IMG/VR virus record: IMGVR_UViG_3300005253_000948
Coordinates: 1 to 35,621 of that record
Length of the DNA: 35,621 nucleotides
Reading direction: 5' to 3' (one strand)
DNA from: a virus
The notes under the pieces were generated by a model. The model did not search any database, was not told where the DNA came from, and worked only from the letters and a program-made list of their open reading frames with translations. Of the stretch, positions 9,002-33,069 are shown in pieces (within the stretch, counting starts at the first letter, position 1; each line of letters starts with the position of its first letter). Both the position numbers and the translations under genes were made by a program.

Positions 9002-9903
9002 TTCAATGCCCTCTTTCGCTTCTTAACCATGGCTGCCAACTCCTCCTCGAAGTCAGCCTCGCACTCAAAACCTAGTAACTCCTTAGCAGGCACCGTGTCT
9101 GCTACAGAATCAACTACCATAATACAAGGATCTTCTAGAAACTTCAACTGCCCCTGGAACCCGGTAGCCTCTTTAACAGCAGAAGCCACATTCTTTACAG
9201 GTACACCTACCCCGGTTCCAATATCTAGGCGACCCAAACCCTTAACGTCTGTGTTAATCACAAGTTCACATGCTTTTACAGCGTCGGAAATGTGGACCAT
9301 GTCCCGCTCTTTGTTCACATTATATAGAGCAACATCGGAGCCTAAGAGCATCGTATCTGTGAGGAAATTAACCATGCTATTGGAGGAGAAAGACTTACTC
9401 AGACCGTAGATCTCTGAGAAACGCATCGAAGTGGCCTCAATGCCCATCAGAGGAGCTATAAGATGAAGCAAGTCCTCAGATGCCCGCTTAGAAATACCAT
9501 GATGAGACAAAGGCTCACGTGCTGCCTCGGAGGAAGCAAAGATAATCTTAGACGGTCTGGGTTTTACTATACTACAGGCGTCTAACAAATTAGCCATACC
9601 TACATAGTTAATCTCAGAACAAGCTCTAAAGTTATCTACAGATTCAGGGCGGGTGATAAAGGCGGCGAGGTGGACAATCACATCAGGCTTGTAGCGGTCG
9701 ATGACTCGGAAAAAGTCGTAATAATTACGAACATTGCCTACCACTGCGGGGTGTACGTTCTTTCTTTTAGGTAACTTGTTGTTCAGTCCTGAACCATGGA
9801 GGAAGCTATCAAGGATGTAGATTTGATTACTACGAACCTTCGCCAAGCTAGCCACCAACTCCTGTCCTAAAAATCCTGCGCCTCCGGTGATTAGAATCTT
9901 CAC
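8998..9903 (-). CDS. NAD-dependent epimerase/dehydratase-like, catalytic Tyr replaced by His
   Basis: This 301-residue extended short-chain dehydrogenase starts at GTG behind an AGGAGG site. The Rossmann motif TGGAGFLG is at about residues 6-13, with VHLAAF at 78-83 and a Ser-Ser pair at 124-125. The active-site Y-x-x-x-K reads H135-G-I-S-K139: His (codon CAT) stands where Tyr normally acts as the general base. RFSEIYG and the later MVHISDA match the family. The cofactor site is intact, so it may bind NAD and a sugar nucleotide with altered chemistry, or be a non-catalytic partner. It is the last gene of the sugar cassette, directly before polA. Confidence 0.88.
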   Translation of the reverse strand: MKILITGGAGFLGQELVASLAKVRSNQIYILDSFLHGSGLNNKLPKRKNVHPAVVGNVRNYYDFFRVIDRYKPDVIVHLAAFITRPESVDNFRACSEINYVGMANLLDACSIVKPRPSKIIFASSEAAREPLSHHGISKRASEDLLHLIAPLMGIEATSMRFSEIYGLSKSFSSNSMVNFLTDTMLLGSDVALYNVNKERDMVHISDAVKACELVINTDVKGLGRLDIGTGVGVPVKNVASAVKEATGFQGQLKFLEDPCIMVVDSVADTVPAKELLGFECEADFEEELAAMVKKRKRALK

Positions 9904-9927
9904 CCTATCCTCCTAATAATACGACAA

Positions 9928-10911
9928 TTAGCACCCTACGACAACATCATCTCCATGAATTTTCTGCGCCTCGGAGACGTAGTCCATGTAATCCTTGTCC
10001 TCTTCAATAAGTGATAGGGAAAGCTCCTCGGGATGATACCATAAGAAATAGGTAAGAAACCCCTCTCTAACCTCAGTGAACTGGGGGTCATAGCTGGGCA
10101 ACCCGTACTTCCGATTTTCAATAAACCAGTCCTTGATTTCTTGGGCTATATTCCCTTGTCGGAAATACGCTTCGACGTCGAGCCAGTTATCAAACTCAAC
10201 ATGGTTGTTGATAAGCTTTCGGAAAGGCAACCACAGGGGGTTAGTCTCTCTCATGTTGTGTCCCCCACCACATGTGTAGAAATTCCTGATACCCCGGACC
10301 CAAACAAGGTTCTCCCGCTTAACGTGCTCGTAAACAATTTCCTGCTCGGTGTTGGCAAAGTCAGTGGCCTTGATTTCCTTTTGACCTGTAGGGAAAATTA
10401 GAGTCTCGTGTACTACATGTCCCGGATCTTCATAGTGAATACCCGGTTCCCAGATAAAAATCAAAGGCTTCCAGAAATCAGAGAGACGCTCGTTGATCCG
10501 GTTCCACTCACGGTCAAGAGTTACTACTCTGCACCTGACAGCAAGGGATGTTGCGCCGGATTGGAGCATTTGACGAGTAATTTCCTTGATGTTCTGCATC
10601 AAAGGCTCCGAAAAAAACTCATCATCGTCCGCTACACAACAGACAGAAATCTCACCAGGCTCTCTTAGTTCCCCAACCCTCTTGAAATATTGGTTGCGGC
10701 TCTTAGGAAAGTCATCACACCATTTGAAATCAACCACATCTACCTTATCCTGCTGCTCTAACCACTCAACTGTTCCATCTATGGAGCCTCCGTCTACGAT
10801 AACAAACTGGTCAAAGTAAGGGAACGCTCGCTCCAGATTTGGTTGCATAGTTGTAATACGGTCGGTTACCATCTGACAAAAATATGTCTTGATTTTTAGT
10901 GAATCCACCAT
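9928..10911 (-). CDS. Family 2-like glycosyltransferase, tandem paralog A
   Basis: I start at the ATG with GGAG six bases upstream rather than at an earlier in-frame TTG, giving 327 residues. The GT-A fold is seen as FVIVDGGSIDGTVEWL (about 36-51), a K-x-x-x-R-N-Q-Y segment, and a metal-binding acidic run VADDDEF at about 93-99. A long C-terminal half (WKPLIFIWEPG, RNFYTCGGGHN, PLWLPFRKLI) has no known name but is conserved in the next gene. It most likely transfers a sugar from a nucleotide donor. The paralog immediately upstream has the same architecture, which points to a tandem duplication. Acceptor unknown. Confidence 0.87.
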   Translation of the reverse strand: MVDSLKIKTYFCQMVTDRITTMQPNLERAFPYFDQFVIVDGGSIDGTVEWLEQQDKVDVVDFKWCDDFPKSRNQYFKRVGELREPGEISVCCVADDDEFFSEPLMQNIKEITRQMLQSGATSLAVRCRVVTLDREWNRINERLSDFWKPLIFIWEPGIHYEDPGHVVHETLIFPTGQKEIKATDFANTEQEIVYEHVKRENLVWVRGIRNFYTCGGGHNMRETNPLWLPFRKLINNHVEFDNWLDVEAYFRQGNIAQEIKDWFIENRKYGLPSYDPQFTEVREGFLTYFLWYHPEELSLSLIEEDKDYMDYVSEAQKIHGDDVVVGC

Positions 10912-10912
10912 G

Positions 10913-11923
10913 TTAAACTCCAATCCTCACATCGGGTCCGTGAATCTTACGGGCCTCGTTAGCATAATCCTTGTAGCTCTTATCATGCTCCAAAAGTTCT
11001 ACAGGAATCTCCTCCGGATGGAACCATACGAAATACGTCAGAAAACTCTCCCGGATTTCGGAAGCGCCATCATAGTTATACATACGCCCTTCGTGCTCAA
11101 AGCCCGTCTCCTCAGCAGAAAGCCCCTCGCAGCGATATTTAATCAACCAGTCCTTCAAATCCTGAGCAATGTTACCCTTAGCGAGGTACGCCTCGACCTC
11201 TGTCCAGTTTTCAAAAGAACCTACCTGCGCTAACAGCTGACGAAACGGCATCCACAGAGGCTGTTGGGGTCCTAGGTTAGGGCCTCCTCCAAAGGTATAA
11301 AAGTTACGCATCCCTCGGGGCCAAATAACATTCTCCTGCTTGATATGTTCGTATAGGATCTCATTGTCAGTATCTGCAAAATCCTGAGCCCGGGTTTGTC
11401 GTGTACCGGAAGGCATCTGCAACGCTTCATGGAGACGGGTATCTGCATACTGAATTTCCGGTTCCCAGAAGAAGATCAACGGCTTCCAAAACTCGTCCAA
11501 AGACTCCCACACTCGGGTACCCTCACGATCCACACTAACACTTCGGCAGCGGATCGCGAGCTGATTAAAGTTACCCTGTAGCATCTGGAGGCCGAAATCC
11601 TTAATATGCTCCATACAAAACTGCGAGTAAAACTCATCATCGTCCGCTACACAAATCAAAGAAGCTTCCCCGTCCTCACGTAGTTCGGTGACCTTATTTA
11701 TATACTGGTTACGACTAAGAGGAAAGTTGTCACACCACTTAAACTCTACAAGCTCCACCTTATCCTGTTCCTTGAGCCACTCTATTGTACCATCCGTAGA
11801 CCCACCGTCTATAATAACAAACTTATCAAAGTAGGGGTAAGCTCTCTCTATGTTTGCCCGCATCATGTCCAGACGGTCCGTTACCATCTGACAGAAATAC
11901 GTCTTGATGTTGACCTCGTTCAT
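10913..11923 (-). CDS. Family 2-like glycosyltransferase, tandem paralog B
   Basis: This 336-residue product starts at an ATG with AGGAG seven bases upstream. It parallels its downstream neighbour from the first residues (IKTYFCQMVTDR), through FVIIDGGSTDGTIEWL, CVADDDEF at about 91-98, and RNFYTFGGGPN, to the end (ESFLTYFVWFHPEE, KIHG). About half the residues look identical by eye. Paralog B has an additional segment near residues 268-290 (CEGLSAEETGFEHEGRMYNY). Both keep the acidic metal site, so both are probably active with different acceptors or donors. The two genes are separated by one base. Confidence 0.87.
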   Translation of the reverse strand: MNEVNIKTYFCQMVTDRLDMMRANIERAYPYFDKFVIIDGGSTDGTIEWLKEQDKVELVEFKWCDNFPLSRNQYINKVTELREDGEASLICVADDDEFYSQFCMEHIKDFGLQMLQGNFNQLAIRCRSVSVDREGTRVWESLDEFWKPLIFFWEPEIQYADTRLHEALQMPSGTRQTRAQDFADTDNEILYEHIKQENVIWPRGMRNFYTFGGGPNLGPQQPLWMPFRQLLAQVGSFENWTEVEAYLAKGNIAQDLKDWLIKYRCEGLSAEETGFEHEGRMYNYDGASEIRESFLTYFVWFHPEEIPVELLEHDKSYKDYANEARKIHGPDVRIGV

Positions 11924-11924
11924 C

Positions 11925-12938
11925 TTATAGCTCCTCAAAGAAGTTAACGATAAGCCTGCTGGCTCTATCTTGTGCGTGATCTACAATGGCTTCCTGTCCT
12001 AAAAGCACTGACTTCTCAAAGAAGTCTTTGTCTGTCCACGCTCTCGTAATAAACTCTACAATTTCAAACTCGCTGGAGTCTAAGGGAATGAAAGGAAAAT
12101 CACACTTATCAAACGGAGGACATTGCTTCTGGTTCTCAAAGATTATCGGTAGTGCCCCCGCCGCTACAGCTTCTGCCATTGAGGGCGCAGCTACTGGGTG
12201 ATGGACACCCACAAGCAATTTCGACATTCGAATAGACTCCTGAACATAATCGTAAGGTGCCCAGTTACTCAAACTCTCACTACCTCCGATCTGCATTATC
12301 TGAGTAAAGAGAGACTTCGCTTCTACTTCTGTCTCTGGGGTGCAGTTCCTGTAGTCATCGCTCATAATCCACGCACCGTCCACAAACAAACCACCCGACG
12401 CATGGCGGTCGGCAACCAAATCACGCAAACCTTTAAGCATCCCCACCAAATACTCAGGAATTTCATTAGGACGCTTACTATACCAATGAAATCGTGTCCT
12501 ATCAAATCCCGGAGGTGCTGTCGAAGAGTGAGTAATGATGGGAACAAAATGACCCTTACCCCAACTCCAAGGGTGGATCACAGGGATATGGTCATACACA
12601 GAGTCGTCCGTGGGAAAGAACAACGCTTGTACTCTCTTCGGTGCCTTTAAACGTGCTATCCAGGGCCCGCGATCGGTCTGCCCCAGGTGCGGCACGTCCA
12701 GGAATGCGTCCATTGACACCACGATATCACATTCCCTGTCCGAGCGGACGTTGAGGATGGAATCAAAAGCTACTCCCCGATCTGTATAGGGACGGACCAT
12801 GTCGTTACTGAAGATAGTAACATTATGCCCGGCAGCTGAAAGAACGCCAGCCATGTGGACCAACCAGCGTCCTTCACCTCTTAGCTTAGAATTGAAACCA
12901 TCGTAATAAAACCCAGGACTAGCTATGAAAATCTTCAT
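11925..12938 (-). CDS. GT-B glycosyltransferase-like protein
   Basis: This 337-residue protein opens with MKIFIASPGFYYDGFNSKLRG and has the layout of GT-B enzymes: an N-terminal Rossmann-like half with GRWLVHMAGVLSAAGHNVTIFS near 23-44, and a C-terminal donor-binding half with KLLVGVHHPVAAPSMAEAVA followed by GALPIIF. Glu256 sits where the donor-contacting acidic residue of the GT4 E-x7-E region lies. The usual first Glu of that motif is not obvious, so activity is less certain than for its neighbours. Its ATG overlaps the stop of the dehydratase gene (ATGA). It belongs to the sugar cassette. Confidence 0.72.
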   Translation of the reverse strand: MKIFIASPGFYYDGFNSKLRGEGRWLVHMAGVLSAAGHNVTIFSNDMVRPYTDRGVAFDSILNVRSDRECDIVVSMDAFLDVPHLGQTDRGPWIARLKAPKRVQALFFPTDDSVYDHIPVIHPWSWGKGHFVPIITHSSTAPPGFDRTRFHWYSKRPNEIPEYLVGMLKGLRDLVADRHASGGLFVDGAWIMSDDYRNCTPETEVEAKSLFTQIMQIGGSESLSNWAPYDYVQESIRMSKLLVGVHHPVAAPSMAEAVAAGALPIIFENQKQCPPFDKCDFPFIPLDSSEFEIVEFITRAWTDKDFFEKSVLLGQEAIVDHAQDRASRLIVNFFEEL

Positions 12939-13924
12939 TGCTCCGTCCGAAACTTGTTAAATTCTTTGTACCAATCTACTGTCATACGCAAACCGTCAGG
13001 CATCGTCACGTATTCGAAATCGGGAATAAAGGAGCGAAGCTTGGTAAGATCTAACCACTGCTTCTCAATTTCATGGAAGTTGTCTTGCTTCTCAACAACT
13101 TCGGGGGCCAGGTCGCTACCTGCGGCTGCGCAGATGTCCGACATAAGATCTCCAATCTGAAAAGTCTCACCAGATCCCAGGTTAATAGCATGTCCACGGG
13201 TGATGTCGATCTTCTCCATCAGCTGACAAATGATCTCTGCCGCATCACCTACGTAGATGAACTCCCGAACATAGTTAGCGACACCTCCGTAAAGAACCGG
13301 GGCTTCTCCGTTTAGAAGTCGAAGAATGGATCCTGGCAGGAGTCTACTCAGGTTCATGTCCCCAGGACCATAGAGGTTAGCACCTCGGATAGTATAGGTA
13401 GGCAGATCGTAGTTATTGTCATATGCCTTAGCAATCAATCCCGCACACGCTTTAGATACCTCATACACGGCAGAGGGCTTGAGCGCCTGATCCTCTCGAT
13501 ATGGAAGGTCGCGTGCGTCGAAGGACCCGTAAGCCTTATCACTCTCCATACACAGCACACCCTTCACCGTACCAACAGAACGTGCTGCCTCTAATACCCT
13601 GGCAGTGCCCATGATATTGGTCTCAAAACATCCAATGGGATCAAGGGAGCACTTCCTCACAATAGGATCGGCGGCAAGGTGAAATACAAACTCAATCTCA
13701 TAGTCTGCAATGACCCTCGTCATGTCCGCGAGAGATGTGATGTCCCCATTTACCAAATGATTCACAGGTAGTCCTTCAAATTTGACGTAACTATCCTTGT
13801 GCATGTCGTGTACCAAACCGACCACCTCTGCTCCGCGATCTAGAAGACGTTCAACAACATGTCCTCCCAAGAAACCAGAGGCACCGGTAACCAATACCAA
13901 CTTATTCTTAAGATCAACACCCAT
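12935..13924 (-). CDS. NAD-dependent nucleotide-sugar epimerase/dehydratase
   Basis: The 329-residue extended short-chain dehydrogenase has VTGASGFLGG at 12-21, FHLAADP at 81-87, SDKAYG at 128-133 and an intact Y154-E-V-S-K158 catalytic pair. ANLYGPGDMNLSRLLPG and a REFIYVGDAA stretch resemble CDP-glucose 4,6-dehydratase and GDP-mannose 4,6-dehydratase relatives, which make 4-keto-6-deoxy sugars. The exact substrate cannot be read from sequence. It probably supplies a modified nucleotide sugar to the neighbouring transferases. Junctions are TAATG upstream and ATGA downstream, so translation is likely coupled. Confidence 0.9.
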   Translation of the reverse strand: MGVDLKNKLVLVTGASGFLGGHVVERLLDRGAEVVGLVHDMHKDSYVKFEGLPVNHLVNGDITSLADMTRVIADYEIEFVFHLAADPIVRKCSLDPIGCFETNIMGTARVLEAARSVGTVKGVLCMESDKAYGSFDARDLPYREDQALKPSAVYEVSKACAGLIAKAYDNNYDLPTYTIRGANLYGPGDMNLSRLLPGSILRLLNGEAPVLYGGVANYVREFIYVGDAAEIICQLMEKIDITRGHAINLGSGETFQIGDLMSDICAAAGSDLAPEVVEKQDNFHEIEKQWLDLTKLRSFIPDFEYVTMPDGLRMTVDWYKEFNKFRTEQ

Positions 13925-14583
13925 TACTCATTCTCCTTTTTAATTATCTTGTAAAGATTGTTCTGCTCCTCTTGCTTACCACTGCTCTTGTAGTGTAGGA
14001 TATTCAAACGAGCAGGCTCTTCCATAGTATCACGTTTATAGTCTATTTCGGTGCGCCTCTCAAATCCCACAATCTCCTCGTGAACGGGGCCCTCAAAGCG
14101 ACAATACTTCCTAAACAACCGGTACTGGTAGTCGGGGTAAATATCCGTCTGAATCCCATCGATTATATTCTTTCGAGCAATACCAAAACAATCGTATTTG
14201 GCAGCTTCGCCCTCTTCCAAATCTCCCGGAATACAAAGGATGCCTGCCATCATTAATGCCCGCTGACCTTCAACATCGTCAATAAGCATAGATATAACCT
14301 CCAATAAAGGGGGGTCTAATCTCTCATCTGGGTCATGCAGGTAAACCCAATCCGTATCCAAAGCCTCAATTGCTCGATTCTTTTGAGCAGAAAAGTCATT
14401 CTCAAAAGGATGGTGAATCATACGTGCGCCAAGCCTCTCACACCACTGAACAGTGTCGTCCGTGGAACCTCCATCCACTACCACGATGTCATCCGCCACG
14501 TTATAAAACTGAGGAATGGTAGCAGGAATATGTATCTCTTCATTCAAGGTAATCATTGCCAATCCGAGAGTAGGCTTAGACAT
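13924..14583 (-). CDS. Family 2 glycosyltransferase
   Basis: The chosen ATG has GGGAGGT eight bases upstream and overlaps the previous gene by eight bases, giving 219 residues. It has the classic GT2 start LGLAMITLNEE, then IVVVDGGSTDDTVQWCE (33-49), an N-D-F-S-A-Q-K-N-R segment, and the DxD metal site HDPDE (Asp84, Asp86). YRLFRK near the middle and GPVHEEI match the lipopolysaccharide-core type of GT2. It is shorter than the two paralogous GT2 genes and not closely related to them. Probably cytoplasmic; no membrane anchor is seen. Confidence 0.92.
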   Translation of the reverse strand: MSKPTLGLAMITLNEEIHIPATIPQFYNVADDIVVVDGGSTDDTVQWCERLGARMIHHPFENDFSAQKNRAIEALDTDWVYLHDPDERLDPPLLEVISMLIDDVEGQRALMMAGILCIPGDLEEGEAAKYDCFGIARKNIIDGIQTDIYPDYQYRLFRKYCRFEGPVHEEIVGFERRTEIDYKRDTMEEPARLNILHYKSSGKQEEQNNLYKIIKKENE

Positions 14584-15712
14584 TATCAGCACCTCCCTGG
14601 TCAATTTCTACCAATCTCTTTACAATCATATCTCCTATCTTATCCCAAGTAAAGTTCTTCTGAATGTTTTCGCGAGACAGTAGCCCTTTAGCTTTAGCCT
14701 CGTCGCGGTTGTTGTACACGTGACGCATATAACCCATGGCTTGTCCAATATCAGGCTCACACCACATCTGATCTCCCTTATAGTAGGGGGACCAGGGCAT
14801 GCCGGCAACAGGTGTCATCGTATAATCGACAGGGTAGCTGTTCTCTTCATTCAGAAAGTCTGACTGTCCTCCATAAGAGGGGGTAATGATCGGATTACCC
14901 ATGGCGGCCGCTTCGAAATGGGGAAGTCCCCACCCCTCTGACCGCTGCATTAAGGCAAAGCAATCCCCCCGCTTGTGTAATCCCAAAATATCATCCCTAC
15001 TCATATTCTCCACGATTACATACATCTTAGGGAAATGATCCAAGGTTATGTACTTCTTGTAGTCCTTGATTAGACTAATAACCTTCTCTCTATCCCCTGC
15101 ATGATCGTGCATGTACGTCTTCAACACCAAGCATACGTCATCCACTCCAGTAAACGCAGCGGTGTACGCTGCCAGAAGACCGTAAGGATTCTTACGTTCC
15201 TGCCATTGAAAAATAGAGTAAAATAAGTAGTCGTTTGCGCCCACGCCGTCGATGTTAAAGTTCGGAACAGAGTCCAAATCGGGTACATCGATAGCATGCG
15301 GGATCTTATAAAGAGGCGTACGTACTCCTGAATCACGAAAGACATTCATGTTCCAGTCACAAGGTAGCCACACCTCGTTCACTCTATTACACGCCATGGT
15401 CCAGGCGGGATGGAGCTTGCTGGTCTCCCACACAGTGTACCCGATAATGTGCTTTTTGGTTTCAAACTTAGTCCAGTGTGCCCACAGATCGGGAGTGGAA
15501 TGGACAATAATCTTATCATAATCAATACTAGCATCGATCAGACTCTTCAAGATTTCGCCATCCTCTCCCAGATCTGGACGGGTCTGCTCGAAAGAAATAG
15601 GAGCCAACGTAATAGGATATCCCTTTCGATAGATGGAAAGGACATAATTCCTTGCCGCTTCCGCATACCCACTTCCGTCAAAGACAGGTCCTATGTATTT
15701 GACTCCCGACAT
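14576..15712 (-). CDS. Family 4-type glycosyltransferase
   Basis: This 378-residue GT-B retaining glycosyltransferase opens with YIGPVFDGSGYAEAAR, a phosphate-binding glycine loop. The donor-binding half has the Arg173/Lys174 pair in FQWQERKNP, then QRSEGWGLPHFEAAAMG at 256-272 holding the paired glutamates Glu259 and Glu267 (E-x7-E). GYTVWE near 91-96 is common in phage and environmental relatives. The ATG overlaps the stop of the upstream gene (TAATG). Its position between two other transferase genes supports action on a shared glycan. Confidence 0.92.
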   Translation of the reverse strand: MSGVKYIGPVFDGSGYAEAARNYVLSIYRKGYPITLAPISFEQTRPDLGEDGEILKSLIDASIDYDKIIVHSTPDLWAHWTKFETKKHIIGYTVWETSKLHPAWTMACNRVNEVWLPCDWNMNVFRDSGVRTPLYKIPHAIDVPDLDSVPNFNIDGVGANDYLFYSIFQWQERKNPYGLLAAYTAAFTGVDDVCLVLKTYMHDHAGDREKVISLIKDYKKYITLDHFPKMYVIVENMSRDDILGLHKRGDCFALMQRSEGWGLPHFEAAAMGNPIITPSYGGQSDFLNEENSYPVDYTMTPVAGMPWSPYYKGDQMWCEPDIGQAMGYMRHVYNNRDEAKAKGLLSRENIQKNFTWDKIGDMIVKRLVEIDQGGADNV

Positions 15713-17046
15713 TAGAGCATCTCTCCCTTAAATACGGGGGCATTGGTATCAACAGCAATCCCAGTCGGACTGCTGTGAGAATCCTCGACGATCTTATCAA
15801 AGATGTCTACCCACCGAGGGTTGATGTGTTCGTTCCAGAAAAGACCGTTCGAGACCATCTCAAATCCCGCATCTGCTCTCTTCTTCGCTTCCTCCGGACG
15901 ATCATGTACCAGCAGTAGCTGCTCTACCAGCTTATGAAGGTGACCTGTGGGGCGCGGCACCTCGTTATCGTTAGGCAGAACAGTGATATGATCAATGTCC
16001 CCACCACTAGGATACGGAAACCCAGTTTCCTCGGTAATGTATTCTCCCAAACAAGTGTTCTGCGGGAATACTACAGGAGTTTTACATGCCATGGCCTCTG
16101 TCCAAGACAGTCCCCAACCCTCACCAACTGTAGTACTCATAACCACATCGCTGGCGTTATAAATCATATTGACTACTTCTAACGGGAACCCATTAGAAGG
16201 GGTAAAGTTCTGAGGCAAAATGACATCTTCCTTAAGATCCAGACCGAAGCCCTTGATTACTTCAGGTAGATTCCAACCCTGATCCACAGCCGCCATATGT
16301 AAGTAAAGAATGGAGTTGGGGCGCTGCTTCTTAAACTCCTGGAAGGCTCGAATCGTAGCAGGAATATCCTTTCGCTGCTGGTTTCGGTTCACGTTAGTAA
16401 TAACAAACTTATCTGCAGAAGGACCAAAGAACTGCTGTCGAAACTGCTTGACCTGTGCTTCCGGCAGAGGGTGAAAAACATCAGGATTTACACCGTGAGG
16501 CATCACCTGAAGTTTATCTGCAATCTCCGGTACCTGGGCAATAGATTGCTTCCTAGCAAACTGCGAGTAGGTTATCGGGTAGTCCACAGCGTGCGCTGCC
16601 AGGATCCAAGCTTCCTTAGGAACACCATCTACAGGGTAGTAGAAAACGCTCTTGAAGCGCTTGCCTGACTTCTTTAGGTTCTCAAGCATCTGCGGGACGA
16701 AATCCAAGATGAAAGTGTCCTGCAAGAAAAACAGAATATCATAGTCAAGCTTGGGATCTAAAAGGTGCTGCTGTAGACGCTGGCGTCCGTAAGGATCACG
16801 CTGCTGATTGACAGCCATGGGCCAGATATTGAAAGGATACTCATGAGGATCTCCCCAGTAGTTAATTCCTAGAATATCAACCTCGTAGCGGCCAGAGTTA
16901 TGCAAGGCAGGTAGAATGTTCCGGGATACCTGACCAAATCCCGTTGCGCACGTAGGGGAATCCCCATAGAAGATAATCTTAGTCTTCTTTAGAGGCTTCG
17001 CTCCAATATTAGGATCAATTCTTTCGAGAAACTTTGGCTGCGCCAT
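15712..17046 (-). CDS. Family 4-type glycosyltransferase, first gene of the sugar cassette
   Basis: I start at the ATG of MAQPKF, which has GGAGGAG nine bases upstream; an earlier in-frame ATG lacks an SD. The 444-residue GT-B protein has a glycine loop in PTCATGFGQVSRNI (31-44), the Arg/Lys pair in NRNQQRKD (220-227), and the E-x7-E motif in GEGWGLSWTEAMAC (308-321). LPHGV-type MPHGVNPDVFHP near 182-193 is the usual GT4 interdomain stretch. It overlaps the LSm-like gene by 32 bases. It is a paralog in general plan of the next transferase, but only moderately similar. Confidence 0.92.
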   Translation of the reverse strand: MAQPKFLERIDPNIGAKPLKKTKIIFYGDSPTCATGFGQVSRNILPALHNSGRYEVDILGINYWGDPHEYPFNIWPMAVNQQRDPYGRQRLQQHLLDPKLDYDILFFLQDTFILDFVPQMLENLKKSGKRFKSVFYYPVDGVPKEAWILAAHAVDYPITYSQFARKQSIAQVPEIADKLQVMPHGVNPDVFHPLPEAQVKQFRQQFFGPSADKFVITNVNRNQQRKDIPATIRAFQEFKKQRPNSILYLHMAAVDQGWNLPEVIKGFGLDLKEDVILPQNFTPSNGFPLEVVNMIYNASDVVMSTTVGEGWGLSWTEAMACKTPVVFPQNTCLGEYITEETGFPYPSGGDIDHITVLPNDNEVPRPTGHLHKLVEQLLLVHDRPEEAKKRADAGFEMVSNGLFWNEHINPRWVDIFDKIVEDSHSSPTGIAVDTNAPVFKGEML

Positions 17047-17260
17047 CGTTGTCTTCTCCTCCATCTATGAGCAGGAATGCTCTCTTAATTATACGACGTG
17101 GAACGTCGATTATGTCTTTATTTTTGTCTTCAAGGTAGATTTTATACTGAGTGAACTTGACTACTTTACCAAAAATCTTTAGCCCGTCAGCACATTCTAT
17201 GCCTATGAACGGAAAACCAAGCGCTTTAAGCTGCGCTTGAGTTCTGTTCAGCGAAGTCAT
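17015..17260 (-). CDS. Small LSm/Hfq-like protein
   Basis: In this 81-residue protein about residues 17-62 follow the Sm-fold pattern. There is an amphipathic start helix (RTQAQLKALGF), then GIECADGLKIFGKVVKFTQYKIYLED, which fits the Sm1 pattern hydrophobic-x-L-x-N-G-x5-G-x5-F-x-x-(Y/F), and a second strand pair IIDVPRRIIKRAFLL in the Sm2 position. Host Hfq forms a hexamer that pairs small RNAs with mRNAs. Here the Sm1 Asn is Asp-like (ADG) and the Hfq YKHAI signature is absent, so it is Hfq-like at best. A plain SH3-like barrel of another kind is the main alternative. It overlaps both neighbours by 32-35 bases. Confidence 0.6.
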   Translation of the reverse strand: MTSLNRTQAQLKALGFPFIGIECADGLKIFGKVVKFTQYKIYLEDKNKDIIDVPRRIIKRAFLLIDGGEDNDGAAKVSRKN

Positions 17261-21106: not shown

Positions 21107-22117
21107 TTATCCTCCAAGATATGTTACCACATCTGTATAGGTAAAGTCTTTCGGATCTTTACCGTCTGGCAAGTCAACAATTGTCGTGTTGACAATTCGT
21201 TCGAGCATCTTATTTACGCGCTCTGCGCCTGCTCTGCCTGCCTTGTCTGCGTCCAACATGATGATCACGTTTTCCGCGTATTTAGAGAGAAGATCTCTCT
21301 GATTTGGTGTAATATCTGTTCCCATTGCGGCAACAACATTATACACGCCTTGCATTGCTAATCCCCAAACATCTACAAAACCTTCAACCAATATAAGGAT
21401 TCGGTCTGCACCTTCTTCTACGTTTCCTGTGTACCATTTAGCTACATCTAGGTTGTATAAGGTGGTTCCCTTGTTGATATTCTTCATCAGCAAGTATTTA
21501 GGGTCCTCGTTTGAATCTGTCCTCCGTCCGCTGATAGTAAGTAACGCACCGTCCTCATCACGAATAGGGATGGTCTCTCGGTGGATGCCCTTGCCGTCAG
21601 TAAATCCTCCAATTTCATAGAAGTCCAGCAATTCTGCAGGAAAACCACGATCTTCAAAGTAACTTGATCTCTGCGACTTTAGATCTTCCAAGACTAGCTC
21701 TGGAAAATGACTGGTAACGGCAGCGACAGTCTGGGACTTCTTAATCTCCTGCTGTATCTCCCGTTTTTGCTTCATTTCTAAGTACTGTTCGGACAGTTCC
21801 TCCTGGTTGTTGAGATCAACTCCTGCGATGTCGGCTAAGAATCGAACCGACTCAACGAACGAGGAGCCTGTTGCCTTCTGCACCAAACCTACGAGATCTC
21901 TGTCCCCCTCACCCTCACAGTGACGGGTGTAACAGCACCATGTACGGCTCTCCAAATTGAATCGGAAGCCAGTGATGTTGTCCCCGCCGTGGATTTTACA
22001 CGGACCACGTAGCTCTTTACTACCACGCTTGACTATGTTAAAACCAAGGTGATTAAGCACTGTTTCCGGATCCACAGTAAGTTTTATATTTGCAATAGTG
22101 GTAGGTTCTATTTTCAT
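21107..22117 (-). CDS. dnaG: DnaG-like DNA primase
   Basis: The 336-residue primase has an N-terminal CHC2-type zinc-binding domain (Cys40, His43, Cys61/62, Cys67) and a Toprim catalytic core with Glu245 in LILVEGFVDV, AAMGTDITPNQ, and MLDADKAGRAG (Asp289, Asp291). It lacks the roughly 150-residue helicase-binding C-terminus of bacterial DnaG, which is common in phages. It should make RNA primers for the lagging strand together with the DnaB-like helicase encoded upstream. Its ATG overlaps the stop of the GIY-YIG gene (ATGA), so the homing gene sits exactly between replication genes. Confidence 0.94.
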   Translation of the reverse strand: MKIEPTTIANIKLTVDPETVLNHLGFNIVKRGSKELRGPCKIHGGDNITGFRFNLESRTWCCYTRHCEGEGDRDLVGLVQKATGSSFVESVRFLADIAGVDLNNQEELSEQYLEMKQKREIQQEIKKSQTVAAVTSHFPELVLEDLKSQRSSYFEDRGFPAELLDFYEIGGFTDGKGIHRETIPIRDEDGALLTISGRRTDSNEDPKYLLMKNINKGTTLYNLDVAKWYTGNVEEGADRILILVEGFVDVWGLAMQGVYNVVAAMGTDITPNQRDLLSKYAENVIIMLDADKAGRAGAERVNKMLERIVNTTIVDLPDGKDPKDFTYTDVVTYLGG

Positions 22118-22797
22118 TTCTTTGCGTTTCTATTTCCTTGTAAAGCTTGGGAAATACAACTTTTATGTTCTACAGAAAGTTTTCTTCCGGACAAAGCTTT
22201 ACTCATCTTCAATCGGGTCTCTTCTGAGGGAGACTCACGGTGCTTTCCTTTCTGAGAAACACTCATCTTTTCTCTAGTTTCTACAGAAAGCTTCTTTCCT
22301 GTGTGCGATCTACTCATCTTTAAACGAGATTCTATAGAATGTGTCTGACCTAACTTAGCACGTCCCTTTCTTTGCCGAGTCTCTTCAGAATCTACCCTAC
22401 CCATAAGAGCTTTACTAATCGAATGCCTGTGCTCGATAGAAAGTTTCTTTCCTTTACGTGCTAAACTCATTTTATTTCTGGTCTCTTCAGAAGGTTTACC
22501 TGACTTACCACCTTCCTTTAAATTATACCCAGAAGGTGACAATGTATTGAGTTCTTCGATCCAATACTTCTCTCTCGTATTTAATTCCTTTTCCGAATCA
22601 CATGCTTCTAAAATAACAAAATCAAAATGTTGCGTACCGTATTTAGATATAGCCGCTTTGATTCCCCACGTACGAGAACTTTCAGAAAAATGAACGATTT
22701 CCCTTTTACGAAGATCAAGGGTTCTACCTACATAAATCTTATCGTTTAAATCGTTCTCGATAATATAGATATATCCGTAATTATTCTGAATTTTCAT
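22114..22797 (-). CDS. GIY-YIG homing endonuclease with seven NUMOD3 repeats
   Basis: The 227-residue protein has an N-terminal GIY-YIG nuclease (about 6-95). The motif reads G8-Y-I and I21-Y-V-G-R25, with a glutamate in REKYWI near residue 76 as the metal ligand. The rest, about 100-223, is seven copies of a roughly 17-residue NUMOD3 helix of the form K-L-S-x-E-x-R-x-K-M-S-x-A-x-x-G-K. These bind DNA in tandem, as in the tail of I-TevI-like enzymes. The start lies inside the end of the membrane-protein gene (17 bases) and the stop in the primase start. It is AT-richer and more Lys-rich than its neighbours, in keeping with transfer. Confidence 0.9.
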   Translation of the reverse strand: MKIQNNYGYIYIIENDLNDKIYVGRTLDLRKREIVHFSESSRTWGIKAAISKYGTQHFDFVILEACDSEKELNTREKYWIEELNTLSPSGYNLKEGGKSGKPSEETRNKMSLARKGKKLSIEHRHSISKALMGRVDSEETRQRKGRAKLGQTHSIESRLKMSRSHTGKKLSVETREKMSVSQKGKHRESPSEETRLKMSKALSGRKLSVEHKSCISQALQGNRNAKK

Positions 22798-25129: not shown

Positions 25130-25469
25130 TTTGTGCCTCTTCTATTTTGGTAAGTAACTCCCCCGCGGTTATAGGAATTTCATCATAATTCACACAAAGG
25201 AGAGTATTATCGTTCAGACTACACCACTCGCGTTTAAGGCCATCACGTTTCTTCTGACCTTTAAAAGCGGCAGCGTCGTTGTGAAAGTGCTTATTGAACT
25301 CAGTGTGCTGTACCCCCTGCACCTCAACGTAAAGATTGAGAGTAGGGAGATAAAAGTCGAAGAACAGTCGCTGTCCCTTGTAATTTACATACTCTTCATG
25401 TTTAATTAGAGTATTAGGAAGGGCCGCCTCTAACGACTCTCTGACACTCTTAGCTAAATGACTTATCAC
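25122..25469 (-). CDS. Small PD-(D/E)XK nuclease, VSR/DUF2726-like
   Basis: The 115-residue protein shows the core of a PD-(D/E)XK endonuclease: Asp38 in FFDFYLP, then Glu49-Val-Gln51 in YVEVQGVQH, with Gln replacing the usual Lys. This ExQ form is common in VSR-like and DUF2726/DUF559 relatives. A later KKRDGLKREW segment (Asp76, Lys79) and LLCVNYDEIP match the helix and strand that follow. Such proteins cut DNA at mismatches or act as homing or structure-specific nucleases. It lies next to an HNH homing gene and may be a phage repair enzyme or a second mobile nuclease. Confidence 0.75.
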   Translation of the reverse strand: MISHLAKSVRESLEAALPNTLIKHEEYVNYKGQRLFFDFYLPTLNLYVEVQGVQHTEFNKHFHNDAAAFKGQKKRDGLKREWCSLNDNTLLCVNYDEIPITAGELLTKIEEAQND

Positions 25470-26097
25470 GAGAAAGCTCCTTCACGTATTTCATGTACCT
25501 TTCGGACGCAGCTTCGACAGAGTCAAAGACTCCTAGATTTATCGTCTTCCGATCTACAGTTATGCGGCACTGGTACCTATCTCCTGTACGATAAACACCT
25601 ACAGGATAGTTCCTATTAAGCTGCGCTCGTGTATTTGAACAGTTGGTTCTCCTGTCTGACCATCTACAGTTTGACGCACTATATCCCTTTTCGTTATCTA
25701 TACGATCTAACTCTAATCCCTTTTCATACGAGTGTCGCATGTCATTGTAGAAGTTTTCGAATACAAGCCAATCCACACTAACGCTAATACCCCTACCTCC
25801 GTAATCTGAATACGCAGCAGCTTTAGTATTTAAGCAGCGTTGTTTCATATCCGACCAGGCCGTATAAATGGGAGTCTTACTCATGCCGTGCTTAGTGGAG
25901 TAATTTCTGCTTCTTTCGATCTGAATACAACCACAACTAGTGGTTAATCCCCTACGTAAACTAGCCCCTCGTACAATCTTAGTGACTCCGCAACTACATT
26001 CACACTCCCACAAAGCGGCACTGCTTTTATCCGAACCGGCTCGGCGTAAGGCCGTAAGGTTCGAGAATGTTTTTCCAGTCATATTTATTGCGGTCAT
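25450..26097 (-). CDS. HNH homing endonuclease with AP2 DNA-binding domain
   Basis: The product is 215 residues. A zinc-binding N-terminus (ECECSCGVTK and TSCGC, Cys32/34/36/55/57) leads into HGMSKTPIYTAWSDMKQRCLN, YGGRGI and LELDRIDNEKGYSASNCRW (about 128-146), the signature of a widespread phage HNH nuclease family. Residues 165-205 (GVYRTGDRYQCRITV, TINLGVFDSVEAASERY) form an AP2-type DNA-binding domain. The ATG has AAGG about eight bases upstream. It lies between recA and the small nuclease gene and overlaps the latter by 20 bases. It probably spreads by cutting recA-region DNA of related phages. Confidence 0.9.
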   Translation of the reverse strand: MTAINMTGKTFSNLTALRRAGSDKSSAALWECECSCGVTKIVRGASLRRGLTTSCGCIQIERSRNYSTKHGMSKTPIYTAWSDMKQRCLNTKAAAYSDYGGRGISVSVDWLVFENFYNDMRHSYEKGLELDRIDNEKGYSASNCRWSDRRTNCSNTRAQLNRNYPVGVYRTGDRYQCRITVDRKTINLGVFDSVEAASERYMKYVKELSRDKSFS

Positions 26098-27243: not shown

Positions 27244-27766
27244 TTAATTTCTCCAAAATCTTCTTTCGTGATTCCGCAGCCTTTTCAAAGTCTCTCTGAG
27301 CATACTCCCGATCATAGATCTTGTTGATCTTATCAATATACTCACCAGTCTTGCACTCCTCTACCTCACTAACCTCTGCATTCATGTAGTTACAGATCCT
27401 ATCCATAACAGGACGGGATGTAAGAATGGTCAGGTGATTGATTGGCTCACGGAGCTTCAAAAAGCTCTCGTATTTAAACAATGCGTCAACCAGAGCGGCC
27501 GCTTCTCTGACCGCATCCTTCCTACTAAGACCTAATTTTTGTCTTGAACGTACTAAATCTGACGCGTAGAGGTTATCCTTCTTCCAATCTATGGAAGCAG
27601 GGAACTTACGATCAGAATTGTAAAAAAATCGGCGAGCATAAAAATACTCTACCAGCTTCTTCATGGTGGTGACCGACGCCGTGTCCGAAAAATCCACCTT
27701 AATAACCCGATAACCTCGATCCTGAAGAGTTTTAATAGCCTCCTCTTGATCGAAGTACAAACTCAT
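27230..27766 (-). CDS. Unknown protein between clamp and RecA
   Basis: The product is 178 residues, coupled to the clamp gene by TGATG. It is soluble, basic in the middle (ARRFFYNSDRKFPASIDWKKDN) and helical at the end (DREYAQRDFEKAAESRKKILEKL). No metal or nucleotide motif is seen. It could be a recombination or replication accessory protein judging from its neighbours, but I do not recognise a family. Confidence 0.78.
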   Translation of the reverse strand: MSLYFDQEEAIKTLQDRGYRVIKVDFSDTASVTTMKKLVEYFYARRFFYNSDRKFPASIDWKKDNLYASDLVRSRQKLGLSRKDAVREAAALVDALFKYESFLKLREPINHLTILTSRPVMDRICNYMNAEVSEVEECKTGEYIDKINKIYDREYAQRDFEKAAESRKKILEKLNDNG

Positions 27767-28923
27767 CAGTCAACCTTCTTAAGGGTACAAACAAACGCCT
27801 TGAAATCCTCATCCTTAGGCGACTTCAGCAACACACCACGTGCGTCCTGAGTGAAATAAAACTCAAACTCATCACCCTTCAGCTGCCGCAGAGAATTCTG
27901 AAGCAACATGGAGTCAAAGTGTAGAGTAAAGTCGTCAGGGGTATTAACCTCAAGGTCAGAGCTTTCCGCTTCCCCACTAATGCTGGAGGTAGAAAGACTG
28001 GCGTTACCCTTCTTAAAGGCATCGACTACAAGACGGTGGCTCTTTGCGTCCACAGTAGGCTGCATTCCCTGGAGGACAGACATGAACGCGTCTCGGGGGA
28101 AGGTAGCAAGCTTTAGGCCCTCAACATCCATGTAAGTGGTGTAGTCTGGGAACGCGGTACTAATCAAAGTACCCACCAAGACAGTACCACCACTCTTCAG
28201 GAAGAACTGATCATCCTCAACATACATATCAACAAAGTCAAATGTAGGATTAACCAGTTTGGAGGCTACGGTTGCAAACTTAAGCCCCAAACTGAAAGAG
28301 CCGCGAAGGCCTTTGACCTTGGCGGCTCGTCTGAACTCTGCGATTTGAATGCCGTCTGTTGCGGCGAAGACAACTTCGTTGTCCGTAAGAGTAAGTTGAA
28401 TACAGTTGAAGTGTAGTTTGGACGCGTCCTTGGAAGCAGCATGGCTTACCTTAGACATACCATCCATGAACTGCAAGGTCGGGAACTTGGTGGACAATGC
28501 GTCATTAAACTCAGGGGCCTCAATAAAGAAACCAGAGTTCAACAGCGGAAAGTTCCGCACGTGCTTGAGAGTCTGTTCCTCAGAAACACGATTACCACCA
28601 GAGATCTTAAGGGTACTCTTCGAGGTAGTTGACAACGTGACAATATTTGGCGCATTATCGAAACCAAAATCCTCAAAAGTGGCAGTAACAGAGGTTGTTA
28701 CCGGTCCTGCCTTTACCAAAGTATCTCCGGCTTCTTTAACGATGGCGGGTACCTGAACCCGAACACCTAAATTATCATCGGAAGAAGTGAAAACAACGGT
28801 GTCTCCTTCTGCGCGAACAAGGACGCCTGTCTTCTCTTCTGCGATAGCGGAGCTGACAGGTGCAATCTCGTTACACGTGTTCAGCGCGCGCTTTAAATCT
28901 TGCGCAGCAATCTCAATTTTCAT
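27766..28923 (-). CDS. dnaN: DnaN-like sliding clamp
   Basis: The 385-residue protein has the beta-clamp plan of three similar domains: MKIEIAAQDLKRALNTCNEIAP at the start, a mid-domain SKLHFNCIQLTLTDNEVVFAATDGIQIAEFRR (compare LNG-x-x-x-E-x-x-x-x-x-x-ATDGHRLA in bacteria), and a C-terminal FYFTQDARGVLLKSPKDEDFKAFV that matches the end of DnaN. It should form a ring that holds the polymerase on DNA. It is the first gene of the replication operon, behind a strong promoter. No clamp loader is visible, so host gamma complex use or a loader elsewhere in the genome is implied. Confidence 0.88.
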   Translation of the reverse strand: MKIEIAAQDLKRALNTCNEIAPVSSAIAEEKTGVLVRAEGDTVVFTSSDDNLGVRVQVPAIVKEAGDTLVKAGPVTTSVTATFEDFGFDNAPNIVTLSTTSKSTLKISGGNRVSEEQTLKHVRNFPLLNSGFFIEAPEFNDALSTKFPTLQFMDGMSKVSHAASKDASKLHFNCIQLTLTDNEVVFAATDGIQIAEFRRAAKVKGLRGSFSLGLKFATVASKLVNPTFDFVDMYVEDDQFFLKSGGTVLVGTLISTAFPDYTTYMDVEGLKLATFPRDAFMSVLQGMQPTVDAKSHRLVVDAFKKGNASLSTSSISGEAESSDLEVNTPDDFTLHFDSMLLQNSLRQLKGDEFEFYFTQDARGVLLKSPKDEDFKAFVCTLKKVD

Positions 28924-29004: not shown

Positions 29005-29034
29005 GGAAAAAAATAAGAGAGATTTTTATATTCC
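29005..29034 (-). terminator. Weak AT-rich terminator candidate
   Basis: The transcript around the stop of the repeat-protein gene can pair AAAAAT with ATTTTT and outer GGAA with TTCC, and ends in a run of T. The stem is AT-rich, so it would be a weak terminator, but it lies directly before the next promoter. Confidence 0.35.
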
Positions 29035-31047
29035 GACTATACTTGCTGACAAGTCTAATGGCGGTATTGGTATTATACTTGTTGTCAAATCCACTGGGAA
29101 TACTCTGTTAACCAGAGCATTCATGTCTCCAAATGTGTCATTCGCAGACAATAAAGCAGGAAGGGATGAAGTACCACCGCTCGCGAACAGATTTGCACCC
29201 ATGTCCGCCTCTCCTGCCTGTCCGATAACTACAGCAATACAGTTTCGTACTGCCTCATCCAAGGTGGCGTAGGAAGTTAGTCCGCCCAGGCGACACACCC
29301 TTCCGGCTGCGAACTCGCCGAACAATCCTACTGCAATTTCTCGGAAAGATCTAATGTTGATCTTCCAATCCTTAGTACCATCGGCGATAAATGCGTTATC
29401 GGTACCATTTACATAGAAGTAGTCCAGAAGCTCGCCTTCCATCTGGAAGCGCAACTCCTGGGTGTCGAACTCCCGGTCCGGCCTAAGCTCCACGGCAGTC
29501 ATTCTGCTGACAGAAAGATCAACACGAGGCAGTAGTATAATCGCCTGGATAGTGGCTGCCAAATCTATACGAGGCTGTCCTGCTGTAATGACAGCGCCCA
29601 AATTCAACCCACGGAAAGGAGAGAATGTGACAGGAATAGTATCTGTGGTGCGGAATATAACAGGCCGATTGGCCCTGGGAGAGAAGGTCACACCGATAGT
29701 ATCCATGGCGTAGAAAATCTCTTTAAGATTTATTGTTGCGCCGAGATTTTTCTCAATAAACGACTGAATAAAACCACCCACATCCTTAGCATGCTGAGCA
29801 TTAGCATACGCGTTAAGGACGGCATTGGCAGAACCGCCGGCACATGCAGGGTTGCCTATGGTGGCCCTCAGATCGTAAGCATTTAAGGTACTTACTGTGA
29901 GTATAGCGGTAACAAAAGTCTCGGATGCGCGTAGAAACGCAGTAAGATCGGAAGTTCCCGCAAGGGCCTCGATGGTTGCGGATAAATTCTTAAGGTTCCC
30001 ATTGGCTTCAATGCTAGCGGGGATACTCACAGCGTGGACAGGCTGCAGTATTCCGGCCAAGAACCGATCGTAAACTCCCAGAGGAAGCGCGGTCATAGAA
30101 GCCGCTAGAGTAATCGCAGATAGGAAGTTAAGGCGGGCTTGTAAATCAAATTCAATCTCTGTCCTAATAGTAGCTCTGAGATCATTAACAAATTGGGCAG
30201 TGAGAAGAGCAAGCATGTCGCCTGAATCTTTGCTGGAATTAAGAAATGCAGATAATTCATCACCTGCGATACGTCCTGCAGTAATAGCGGCACCAAGTAC
30301 CTGTTCCAATCGAGAGAATAATACTGAAGGTAAATCTATCTGGGCAGAGGCAAAGCCTTTGATCCGGGCGAAAAGTTTCGGAGCAGGAATACCCAGCATC
30401 TGGGCAGGCATATCATCAAAATTGAATGCGAAAATGGCACCCGGGAGATCAGAGAAAACGACTGAAGTAATAATTGCAGGCAAATCCAGAGGGGACCAAA
30501 TAATGGCTCCCAGGTTTGGAGCCGCCTGGGAGAAAACACGACCTGCCAAATTTGGAGCCTCAATACCCAGAATGAATCCACCCAGATCTTCCTGAACAAT
30601 CTGGATGATAGCAGCAAGGTCCAACTGGGCAAGGATACCAAAGATGTCCGCACCAAGATCTTGTTCTATGTATGCAAAGATGAACGCACGCAGATCCGGT
30701 AGGAACGCTACCGGATAGGCGCATGCGGGCATGTCAAAGAATCTCTGAGCAAAGATGGTGGCGTCTAAATCGCGCCGACCCACCTGCATGACCCGCATGA
30801 CGGCTTTAAGATCTGGAAAGTTGTAACAAAGAGGGGGCTTGCGGACAACACCTTCGATAATAGTGAAGTCCGAGATAAAAGAAATCCCAGACTGGTTAGC
30901 AGGCAGCCTAGGATCAGCGCCCACGACGGCTTGAATGTGCGGACCAGTATGGGCCTGTATAATAGATCTAATAATCGCACCGGCATCATCTCGACCGGCA
31001 TTGTACAGGGCACTATTATATGTGTTTCTATTATATGTGCCTGCCAA
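29026..31047 (-). CDS. Virion-type protein built from 12-residue D-L-x-A-x-I repeats
   Basis: The product is 673 residues from a TTG start with AGGAG six bases upstream. From about residue 79 to 312 a D/N-L/M-x-A-x-I unit recurs every 12 residues (range 10-14), about 19 times in a row; isolated units recur later (near 354, 367, 392, 422, 434, 482, 495). Examples are DLGADIFGILAQ, DLGGFILGIEAP and DLPGAIFAFNFD. A short VTFSP doublet (DTIGVTFSP, DTIPVTFSP) lies at 449-476. A non-repeat part at about 520-600 (EFDTQELRFQMEGELLDYFY) follows, then two final units. It lies just downstream of two tail-fibre-like genes. A solenoid-like fibre or tail component is likely; no family is recognised. Confidence 0.8.
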   Translation of the reverse strand: MAGTYNRNTYNSALYNAGRDDAGAIIRSIIQAHTGPHIQAVVGADPRLPANQSGISFISDFTIIEGVVRKPPLCYNFPDLKAVMRVMQVGRRDLDATIFAQRFFDMPACAYPVAFLPDLRAFIFAYIEQDLGADIFGILAQLDLAAIIQIVQEDLGGFILGIEAPNLAGRVFSQAAPNLGAIIWSPLDLPAIITSVVFSDLPGAIFAFNFDDMPAQMLGIPAPKLFARIKGFASAQIDLPSVLFSRLEQVLGAAITAGRIAGDELSAFLNSSKDSGDMLALLTAQFVNDLRATIRTEIEFDLQARLNFLSAITLAASMTALPLGVYDRFLAGILQPVHAVSIPASIEANGNLKNLSATIEALAGTSDLTAFLRASETFVTAILTVSTLNAYDLRATIGNPACAGGSANAVLNAYANAQHAKDVGGFIQSFIEKNLGATINLKEIFYAMDTIGVTFSPRANRPVIFRTTDTIPVTFSPFRGLNLGAVITAGQPRIDLAATIQAIILLPRVDLSVSRMTAVELRPDREFDTQELRFQMEGELLDYFYVNGTDNAFIADGTKDWKINIRSFREIAVGLFGEFAAGRVCRLGGLTSYATLDEAVRNCIAVVIGQAGEADMGANLFASGGTSSLPALLSANDTFGDMNALVNRVFPVDLTTSIIPIPPLDLSASIVGI
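30112..30813 (-). repeat. Region coding for about 19 tandem 12-residue repeats
   Basis: The units share D/N-L-x-A-x-I/L/V at the protein level with six variable residues between. The DNA copies have diverged, so it is an old repeat rather than a recent expansion. Confidence 0.8.
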
Positions 31048-31098: not shown

Positions 31099-33069
31099 TT
31101 ATGCGGGTGTTATTTTCAATGTGTGATCTGCCGCAATGTCTACCCAGAGTTCTCCTGGCTGTAAAGCGCCCGAGGCAGTCGGTAAGTTATCAAAAATAAT
31201 AGTAGTTCCTTGAACATTTAAATCTCCAGTGATAATTCCGCTGCCTGCAACATGAAGTCTCTCGCTTGGGGAAGTGGTTCCAATTCCTACGTCCCCACTG
31301 TCTCGGAAGACTGCTATCGTCGTCGGTGTAAATGAGACATCTTGGGTGGCTGCTCGGACAGGGCTGGTAATTATAGATACATCACCAAGAGATGGGTGAT
31401 TGAACCCAACACCCACACCACCGATAGATGGGTGAGTCCTCGAATACCGAAGTACATTACCGCCGCCAGCGTCTGTGTAGAAGTTTCCTCCGATGAAACC
31501 CCGACCCGATTGATTCGAGGCCATATCAATCCAGTCGTTGGCTTTGATTTGGCCTCCTGTAGAATTGACTACGTCTAACGCGGCAGTGGGGATAGTAGTT
31601 CCAATTCCAACGCGCGCGCCGGGAGAGTTGAAATAGGAGTTCCCGCCGCCGGTTGACAGTTGAATATCAATAGTTCCGCTTCCATCCCCCCGAAGCAATT
31701 CAACTCGCCTGGCGCCCGTTGTGTTAGTGGTCCGAAACACCCTGACGATAGCGCTGCTGCTCCCATCCGAAGGTCTGGCATTGATATCAATTAAAGATAT
31801 TCCAGACGCGGATATCTTCTGAAGAACGGTTTGCGTGGGACTGTTATCAAAGACTTCAAAATAACTGGTGCCTGCGCCGTCAGTGTCTTCGAGCCGTAGA
31901 TTGGCAGGATTCGCCACGATGTGAAGGTTGCCAACAGGATTAGTGATTCCAATTCCAACTCGACCGGTCGAGGAGTTTGTGAAAAAAGTGTTCGCAAGAT
32001 TGGTGTCTCCGACTACAGTGAGCATATCGGCAACTATTATTCCATCGGAGTCATCACCGGCTCCAGATATAGTAAGTCGCTTAGTTCCTCCGGCTGTAAA
32101 TCCTATGGTATCCCCGGCGATATTATACATTCCAGTATTGGGGTCACCCCAGAACGAGTAACCTGGAGTAGCGGCGGTCCCCGCCTTCACGTAGATAGGA
32201 GTTAGCGGGATGTTCAAACCGTCGGTAGATATATGCATGTAGGTGAAACCGTTTAACACTCCGTGAATGTCGGTGGATGTGGCCAGGTAGAATCCAGCAT
32301 TAGGGGTAGAAGCAAAGGAAATACTGGGAGCTGAGTCACTTCCATCTGGAACCGTCAATACACCTTGAACGTCAAGGTCACTAGTTATAATTCCACTACC
32401 TGTAACTTGGAAAGGCTTCGCGACGTCGGCAATAATAATTCCATCACCGTTGTCGTAAGCTTCTTGAAGAGTTACCGAGGAATCTATAGAGTCTATAGAA
32501 GACTGAAGAGACCCGGAAGCATTTACGAACTCTGTTCTATTAGTTGTTACGGTTGCATCGGTTGCGACACCGCTAGCTGCCAACGCGGATGTGGTGGGCT
32601 CAAGTGCAGCAATTGCTTCGCCGTCGGTGTATTTAGTGTGATGCGCGTCTGCTATCGCATCATGGGTAGCTATGTCGGCTGTGATTTGAGAAGCAAGACT
32701 TCCGCTTGCGTTTACAAATTCCGTGCGGAAACCTGAGATTGTATCCGTCGGATCACCGGAGGTCACCGTGATGCCGTCTGAACCTACCAAAGCATTAGCA
32801 GTACTTCCACCACCACCGCCGCCAGAAATAGTAATCGTTACCTGACCACCACCATCATCGGTAAGAGTACCGTCACTGACAACAATGGTATCTACATTAG
32901 CTACCGAAGGAGCGCCATCCACTTCCTTCACTGTAAGAGCAGAACCACCACCAACGTCACTGTCAGAAGTTAGGATACTAGCTCCAGATACGGTCACAGA
33001 ATCTGAGAAGATTCCGGACGGAACCGTGAGTGTTCCACTTACATTTAGATCTGCATTATATAGTGCCAT
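31099..33069 (-). CDS. Tail-fibre-like protein
   Basis: The 656-residue protein begins MALYNADLNVSGTLTVPSG, a common start for phage structural beta-rich proteins. It is Gly/Ser/Thr-rich with repeated short hydrophobic strands. The N-terminal module ALTVKEVDGAPSVANVDTIVV is shared with the gene upstream. Three VGIG-T-x-P motifs (GRVGIGITNP, ARVGIGTTIP, DVGIGTTSPSERLHV) recur in the second half, typical of fibres that end in an intramolecular chaperone, but no S74 peptidase follows; the end is GELWVDIAADHTLKITPA. It is probably a trimeric fibre or baseplate-appended protein that binds the host surface. A weak TTGCGT-17-TATTAT promoter precedes it. Confidence 0.83.
   Translation of the reverse strand: MALYNADLNVSGTLTVPSGIFSDSVTVSGASILTSDSDVGGGSALTVKEVDGAPSVANVDTIVVSDGTLTDDGGGQVTITISGGGGGGSTANALVGSDGITVTSGDPTDTISGFRTEFVNASGSLASQITADIATHDAIADAHHTKYTDGEAIAALEPTTSALAASGVATDATVTTNRTEFVNASGSLQSSIDSIDSSVTLQEAYDNGDGIIIADVAKPFQVTGSGIITSDLDVQGVLTVPDGSDSAPSISFASTPNAGFYLATSTDIHGVLNGFTYMHISTDGLNIPLTPIYVKAGTAATPGYSFWGDPNTGMYNIAGDTIGFTAGGTKRLTISGAGDDSDGIIVADMLTVVGDTNLANTFFTNSSTGRVGIGITNPVGNLHIVANPANLRLEDTDGAGTSYFEVFDNSPTQTVLQKISASGISLIDINARPSDGSSSAIVRVFRTTNTTGARRVELLRGDGSGTIDIQLSTGGGNSYFNSPGARVGIGTTIPTAALDVVNSTGGQIKANDWIDMASNQSGRGFIGGNFYTDAGGGNVLRYSRTHPSIGGVGVGFNHPSLGDVSIITSPVRAATQDVSFTPTTIAVFRDSGDVGIGTTSPSERLHVAGSGIITGDLNVQGTTIIFDNLPTASGALQPGELWVDIAADHTLKITPA
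32821..32952 (-). repeat. Fibre module copy 1
   Basis: It codes for G-G-S-A-L-T-V-K-E-V-D-G-A-P-S-V-A-N-V-D through VTITISG. A near-identical module lies about 780 bases away in the upstream fibre gene. Confidence 0.85.

Follow-up and report, generated by a model that had tools for sequence, protein, structure and literature searches.

The window analyzed here, a 35,621-nucleotide stretch of viral DNA (IMG/VR record IMGVR_UViG_3300005253_000948), carries the gene of a 673-aa protein, hereafter REP, in which a 12-residue unit with the consensus DLxAxI recurs far above chance; the repeat is real and represents a new family within a familiar type of architecture. Far from being an isolated case, REP has relatives at the same locus throughout an uncultured phage lineage, and together they define a family of repeat proteins wholly missed by current libraries. 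On balance, we favor the view that REP is a conserved tail protein of uncultured tailed phages, composed of an N-terminal anchor, a β-solenoid shaft, a conserved C-terminal domain and a lectin tip that is optional, and that it probably forms the shaft and contacts the host in this lineage. With its highly regular repeat, and with a unit count and tips that vary among relatives, the family could serve as a natural series for the study of fiber length in solenoid rods and of the gain and loss of lectin tips.

From the features described below we infer that REP is located in the virion, attached to it, elongated and in contact with the host. The relatives of REP fall into two groups, and attachment to the particle would be provided by a YN segment in group 1 and by a Y-PP...GY-P-DF segment in group 2. 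Each 12-residue unit would form one short β-strand, with Leu, Ala and Ile pointing inward and Asp/Asn at the turn, an arrangement read from the pattern of the unit only. Successive units would stack into a stiff β-solenoid shaft, probably a flattened one in which each turn takes two units (24 residues). The shaft would carry the conserved C-terminal domain, to which many members add LamG (ConA-like lectin) domains that may contact host sugars. The features of the locus, ordered from the upstream neighbor of REP to its downstream neighbor, are:

31099..33069, minus strand: upstream fiber-like protein of 656 aa with VGIGTTxP..LDV motifs (sequence; short matches to fiber-like proteins of relatives)
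29026..31047, minus strand: REP gene, 673 aa (open reading frame; TTG start with Shine-Dalgarno sequence; homologues in both groups)
30853..31047, minus strand: conserved N-terminal segment of REP, residues 1-65 (YNRNTYNSALYN...HTGPHIQAVVG...ISFISDF), probable virion anchor (identity to relatives)
30298..30813, minus strand: first repeat array, residues ~79-250, 12-residue units (pattern and chain analysis)
29518..30297, minus strand: second, irregular repeat region, residues ~251-510, with the conserved block ETFVTAILTVSTL..LRATIG.P.C.GGSA (pattern; relatives)
29212..29517, minus strand: C-terminal domain, residues ~511-612 (LRFQMEG..DYFYVNGT..AFI.D....WKINIRSF ... T.DEAVR.CI) (conservation; hhalign)
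29029..29211, minus strand: terminal repeats, residues 613-673, followed by LamG extensions in some relatives (pattern; relatives)
27766..28923, minus strand: downstream sliding clamp, a fixed neighbor of the locus (phrog_947, E 4e-31; synteny)

The TTG start codon is preceded at ~7 nt by AGGAGA. The strict pattern [DN][LMV]xAx[IVLF] occurs 18 times in the window REP, compared with a mean of 0.60 (SD 0.75, maximum 4) in 5000 shuffles that kept the composition, and a looser pattern occurs 28 times, compared with 4.4 in shuffles. A, L and I are abundant in REP, as would be expected if the pattern reflected low complexity or chance composition; the excess over composition-preserving shuffles refutes this reading, and the sharing of the DLxAxI unit by highly diverged homologues likewise leaves it with a negligible probability. 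Units matched by the pattern start at residues 79, 93, 118, 130, 143, 154, 166, 178, 188, 200, 212, 238, 277, 289 and 301, weaker units are seen by eye only at 105, 224 and 250, and later ones start at 354, 367, 392, 422, 434, 482, 495, 615, 641 and 665. Across residues 79-301 the spacing is 10-14 with a mode of 12, and in the residue autocorrelation lag 12 is the sole lag above z 3 (z 3.9). The original prediction, made from the sequence by eye, thus placed the units correctly, counting the three weaker ones, and its spacing and mode were right. Its description of REP as a protein built from this repeat holds for the arrays, which are clean over residues ~79-250, irregular from 251 to ~510 and back again at the C-terminus, but not for the N-terminal segment and the C-terminal domain (~511-612), which are non-repeat.

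With E values up to 1 admitted, the window REP has no match in Pfam or PHROGs, and profiles of the REP family match no chain of the PDB; in NCBIfam the window REP reaches only a sub-threshold entry. These results agree with the earlier statement that the unit corresponds to no known repeat. Members of the family searched against Pfam, PHROGs and NCBIfam gave LamG or isolated weak matches only. A tblastn search with the window REP and two relatives against 50,697 GenBank phage records returned nothing, as did a single-protein search of viral contigs, and in our literature searches a 12-residue DLxAxI repeat was nowhere described. Pentapeptide repeats, which have the consensus A(D/N)LXX and form a β-solenoid, share the [DN]L signature with the REP unit but have a period of 5 rather than 12; the autocorrelation and the absence of a Pfam match bear out the original distinction between the two. 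The Tenebrio-type antifreeze proteins also have a 12-residue repeat in a β-helix, but theirs is built on Thr and Cys and completes a full turn with each repeat, and the REP unit has neither signature.

Relatives were found by scanning IMG/VR at the DNA level for pairs of units spaced by 12 residues, which yielded 55 viral stretches, about 30 of which hold long open reading frames with 12-31 units at a mode-12 spacing. These ~30 further REP proteins are 480-1250 aa long with 12-31 copies each; three other candidates (L005, L025 and L030) were dropped because nothing but low-complexity runs of 6 residues had matched the pattern. Once the proteins from further scans are included, the relatives form two deeply diverged groups. 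Group 1 proteins are 41-67% identical to the window REP and begin with YNRxxYNSALYN, whereas group 2 proteins begin with YxPPxxNIPFxFxxGGYxxPDF. The two groups align by hhalign over 518 columns (E 5.5e-41, a score to which the repeats contribute in part), and the C-terminal domain aligns in order between them, its YFYV-GT...W-I...DEA-R motif keeping the same order in both. Within group 1, no part of REP is better conserved than residues 1-65, where mean identity to the window REP is 75%, followed by the C-terminal domain (511-612; 59%), residues 341-415 (58%), the first array (47%) and the irregular residues 251-340 (32%). The conserved N-terminal segment is the probable virion anchor. Arrays are cleaner in relatives than in the window, the REP of relative L006 having 29 unbroken units, and the positions at which unit length changes are conserved within the family. 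The N-terminal motif of group 2, GY-x-PP...x-F-x-F, is also seen at the C-terminal end of REP in L002, L020 and L040. Among cellular genomes a single match was found, a complete REP locus on contig L082 (WJJK01000056.1), which has been assigned to a Candidatus Altiarchaeales MAG; it is probably a misbinned phage rather than a host gene, and an archaeal host is possible.

Structure prediction bears unevenly on the proposed shaft. AlphaFold2 (AF2) run on the whole window REP with 17 homologues reached a pLDDT of 29.9, from which no fold claims were drawn. For the regular block of L006 (159 residues, 13 units, 17 alignment rows) the best of five models is a single-chain β-helix with 13 strands for 13 units, at a pLDDT of only 58 (pTM 0.51). 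The suggestion of a solenoid or stacked-turn fiber agrees, at this limited confidence, with the best model of the L006 block and draws nothing from the failed model of the window protein. Strand propensity exceeds helix propensity at unit positions 5, 6 and 9; in a comparison with tape-measure proteins, which are long and mostly helical, REP measures 673 aa and the L006 repeats are predicted, at low confidence, as strand and not helix. With moderate to low confidence, these predictions point to one β-strand per unit in a β-solenoid.

The best structural matches of the L006 model are the core β-helices of SufB/SufD (PDB 5awg, 1vh4), which rank first by VIA-align (Z 9.7-11.9, 159/159 residues, rmsd ~3.0, where a Z below ~13 can reflect a common arrangement for repeats). 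The SufB/SufD β-helix is flattened with two strands per turn (PMC6006206). The resemblance is one of architecture only: identity to REP is 5-8%, there is no sequence match in the PDB, and Foldseek with the L006 model gave no hit at E <0.001 (best E 0.02). Lower VIA-align rows are mostly other β-helices, including, at Z 4-5, the parallel β-helix tailspikes of P22, CBA120 (TSP2/TSP3) and LKA1 (gp49). Like the proposed REP, these are solenoid shafts of tail proteins that contact the host; no sequence similarity to them was found, and we know of no 12-residue unit in any of them. Since β-solenoid tail spikes and fibers are already known, the original suggestion that REP may be a new type of elongated virion component goes too far.

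How the strands are wound is less certain. With two units per turn, units two apart might be expected to resemble each other; they do not, lag 2 having z -2.4 in the full comparison and ~0 when the set is reduced, and the two-unit turn is thus unsupported by the sequence. Similarity is instead higher at lag 4, chiefly in L006 and L044; the homologues compared are not independent of one another. Phage fibers are usually trimers, and a rival architecture is known from the tail spike protein gp5 of T4, a repeat-built rod with an 8-residue repeat compared with 12 in REP. In gp5 three chains are wound as a triple-stranded β-helix (PMC4576200), and by this precedent each REP chain might contribute one strand per 12-residue unit to a trimeric fiber, so that the single-chain model would be only partly right. 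The unlikeness of units two apart, which disfavors a two-unit turn within one chain, fits such a trimer, as does the low AF2 confidence on single chains, which is frequent for trimer-dependent folds; the shallow alignment (17 rows) also explains that low confidence, however, and the regular L006 block still came out as a single-chain β-helix. We regard the trimer as a serious but unlikely alternative to the single-chain β-solenoid. A bolder possibility, to which we give somewhat less than even odds, is that REP represents a new class of phage shaft, namely a flattened two-sheet β-solenoid of 12-residue DLxAxI half-turns (24 residues per turn), encoded by a core gene and bearing LamG lectin tips that can be exchanged. 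The lineage concerned has no cultured members, and some of its contigs approach 300 kb.

The genomic position of REP is highly constant. In the loci examined, REP lies directly or closely upstream of a block in the order sliding clamp, F2, UvsX, F6, F4, DnaB and primase (F numbers denote our gene families), a block recognizable only in part in L021. The region upstream of REP contains large fiber-like genes, LamG domains encoded by separate genes and a few proteins whose PHROG matches are to structural or baseplate-wedge families, so that REP comes last after the fiber-like, LamG and structural genes and before the clamp. Most structural proteins upstream of REP have no database match, and the designation of this region as a tail module therefore rests on gene size, motifs, LamG domains and the few baseplate-wedge and structural matches. 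The claim that REP lies beside tail-fiber genes agrees with the fiber-like 656-aa gene directly upstream in the window and with the fiber-like genes upstream in relatives. A search for the tail sheath family PF04984 in 17 locus-linked records gave nothing above the cut-off; hence, we claim no contractile tail. The sliding clamp, the next gene downstream on the same strand, would suit a non-virion REP that serves the replication side as an early or accessory factor, or one that acts at the cell envelope. The LamG modules, the fiber-like genes directly upstream, the variable C-terminus and a repeat-built body ill-suited to a replication factor make this highly improbable.

To avoid the circularity of loci found by the repeat pattern, we used the sliding clamp as an independent probe. 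Of 26 clamp loci, 3 have too little upstream DNA; REP lies upstream in 20 of the 23 testable ones, a few of these contigs being near-duplicates, and in the remaining three the contig ends inside REP with its LamG extension present. REP or its extension is thus found upstream of the clamp in 23/23 testable contigs, which is the behavior of a core gene. The window clamp itself found no match among phage records by tblastn at E 1e-3, a sign of the isolation of the lineage.

The C-terminus of REP is variable. Several relatives have ~550 extra C-terminal residues with a putative LamG lectin (Laminin_G_3, 5.7e-30) that the window REP lacks. The REP of L106 has the extension, although the L106 and window clamps are 92% identical; the extension must therefore be gained or lost quickly. 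Such turnover between close relatives resembles that of host-contact tips and argues against the reading in which REP is a tail tip, baseplate or head decoration without host contact, its LamG domains serving virion stability or another use. We consider that reading quite unlikely, even though it draws on several observations: REP is present at a fixed locus in every testable member and diverges only moderately faster than the replication genes, a constancy that fits a core structural protein more than a swapped receptor-binding protein, and separate LamG genes also lie upstream. A host-contact role for REP remains the one we prefer.

Several other genes of the window and its relatives deserve mention. 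Inside the replication block, window positions 8998-17064 (minus strand) hold two nucleotide-sugar epimerases and about five glycosyltransferase-like genes, a cluster that perhaps serves glycosylation of DNA or virion. Homing-endonuclease-like genes lie at 22114-22797 and 1677-2486 (minus strand), the former separating F10 from the primase, two genes that in L066 and other relatives are direct neighbors. A 215-aa protein is encoded between UvsX and F6 (25450-26097, minus strand); among the loci it has one relative only, encoded on the upstream side of REP in L072 (1492-2127, plus strand), which suggests that the gene is mobile. Finally, genes of family F15 (~130-350 aa), possibly homing endonucleases, are scattered between the tail and replication genes of group 2 (L086, L088, L089 and L092).
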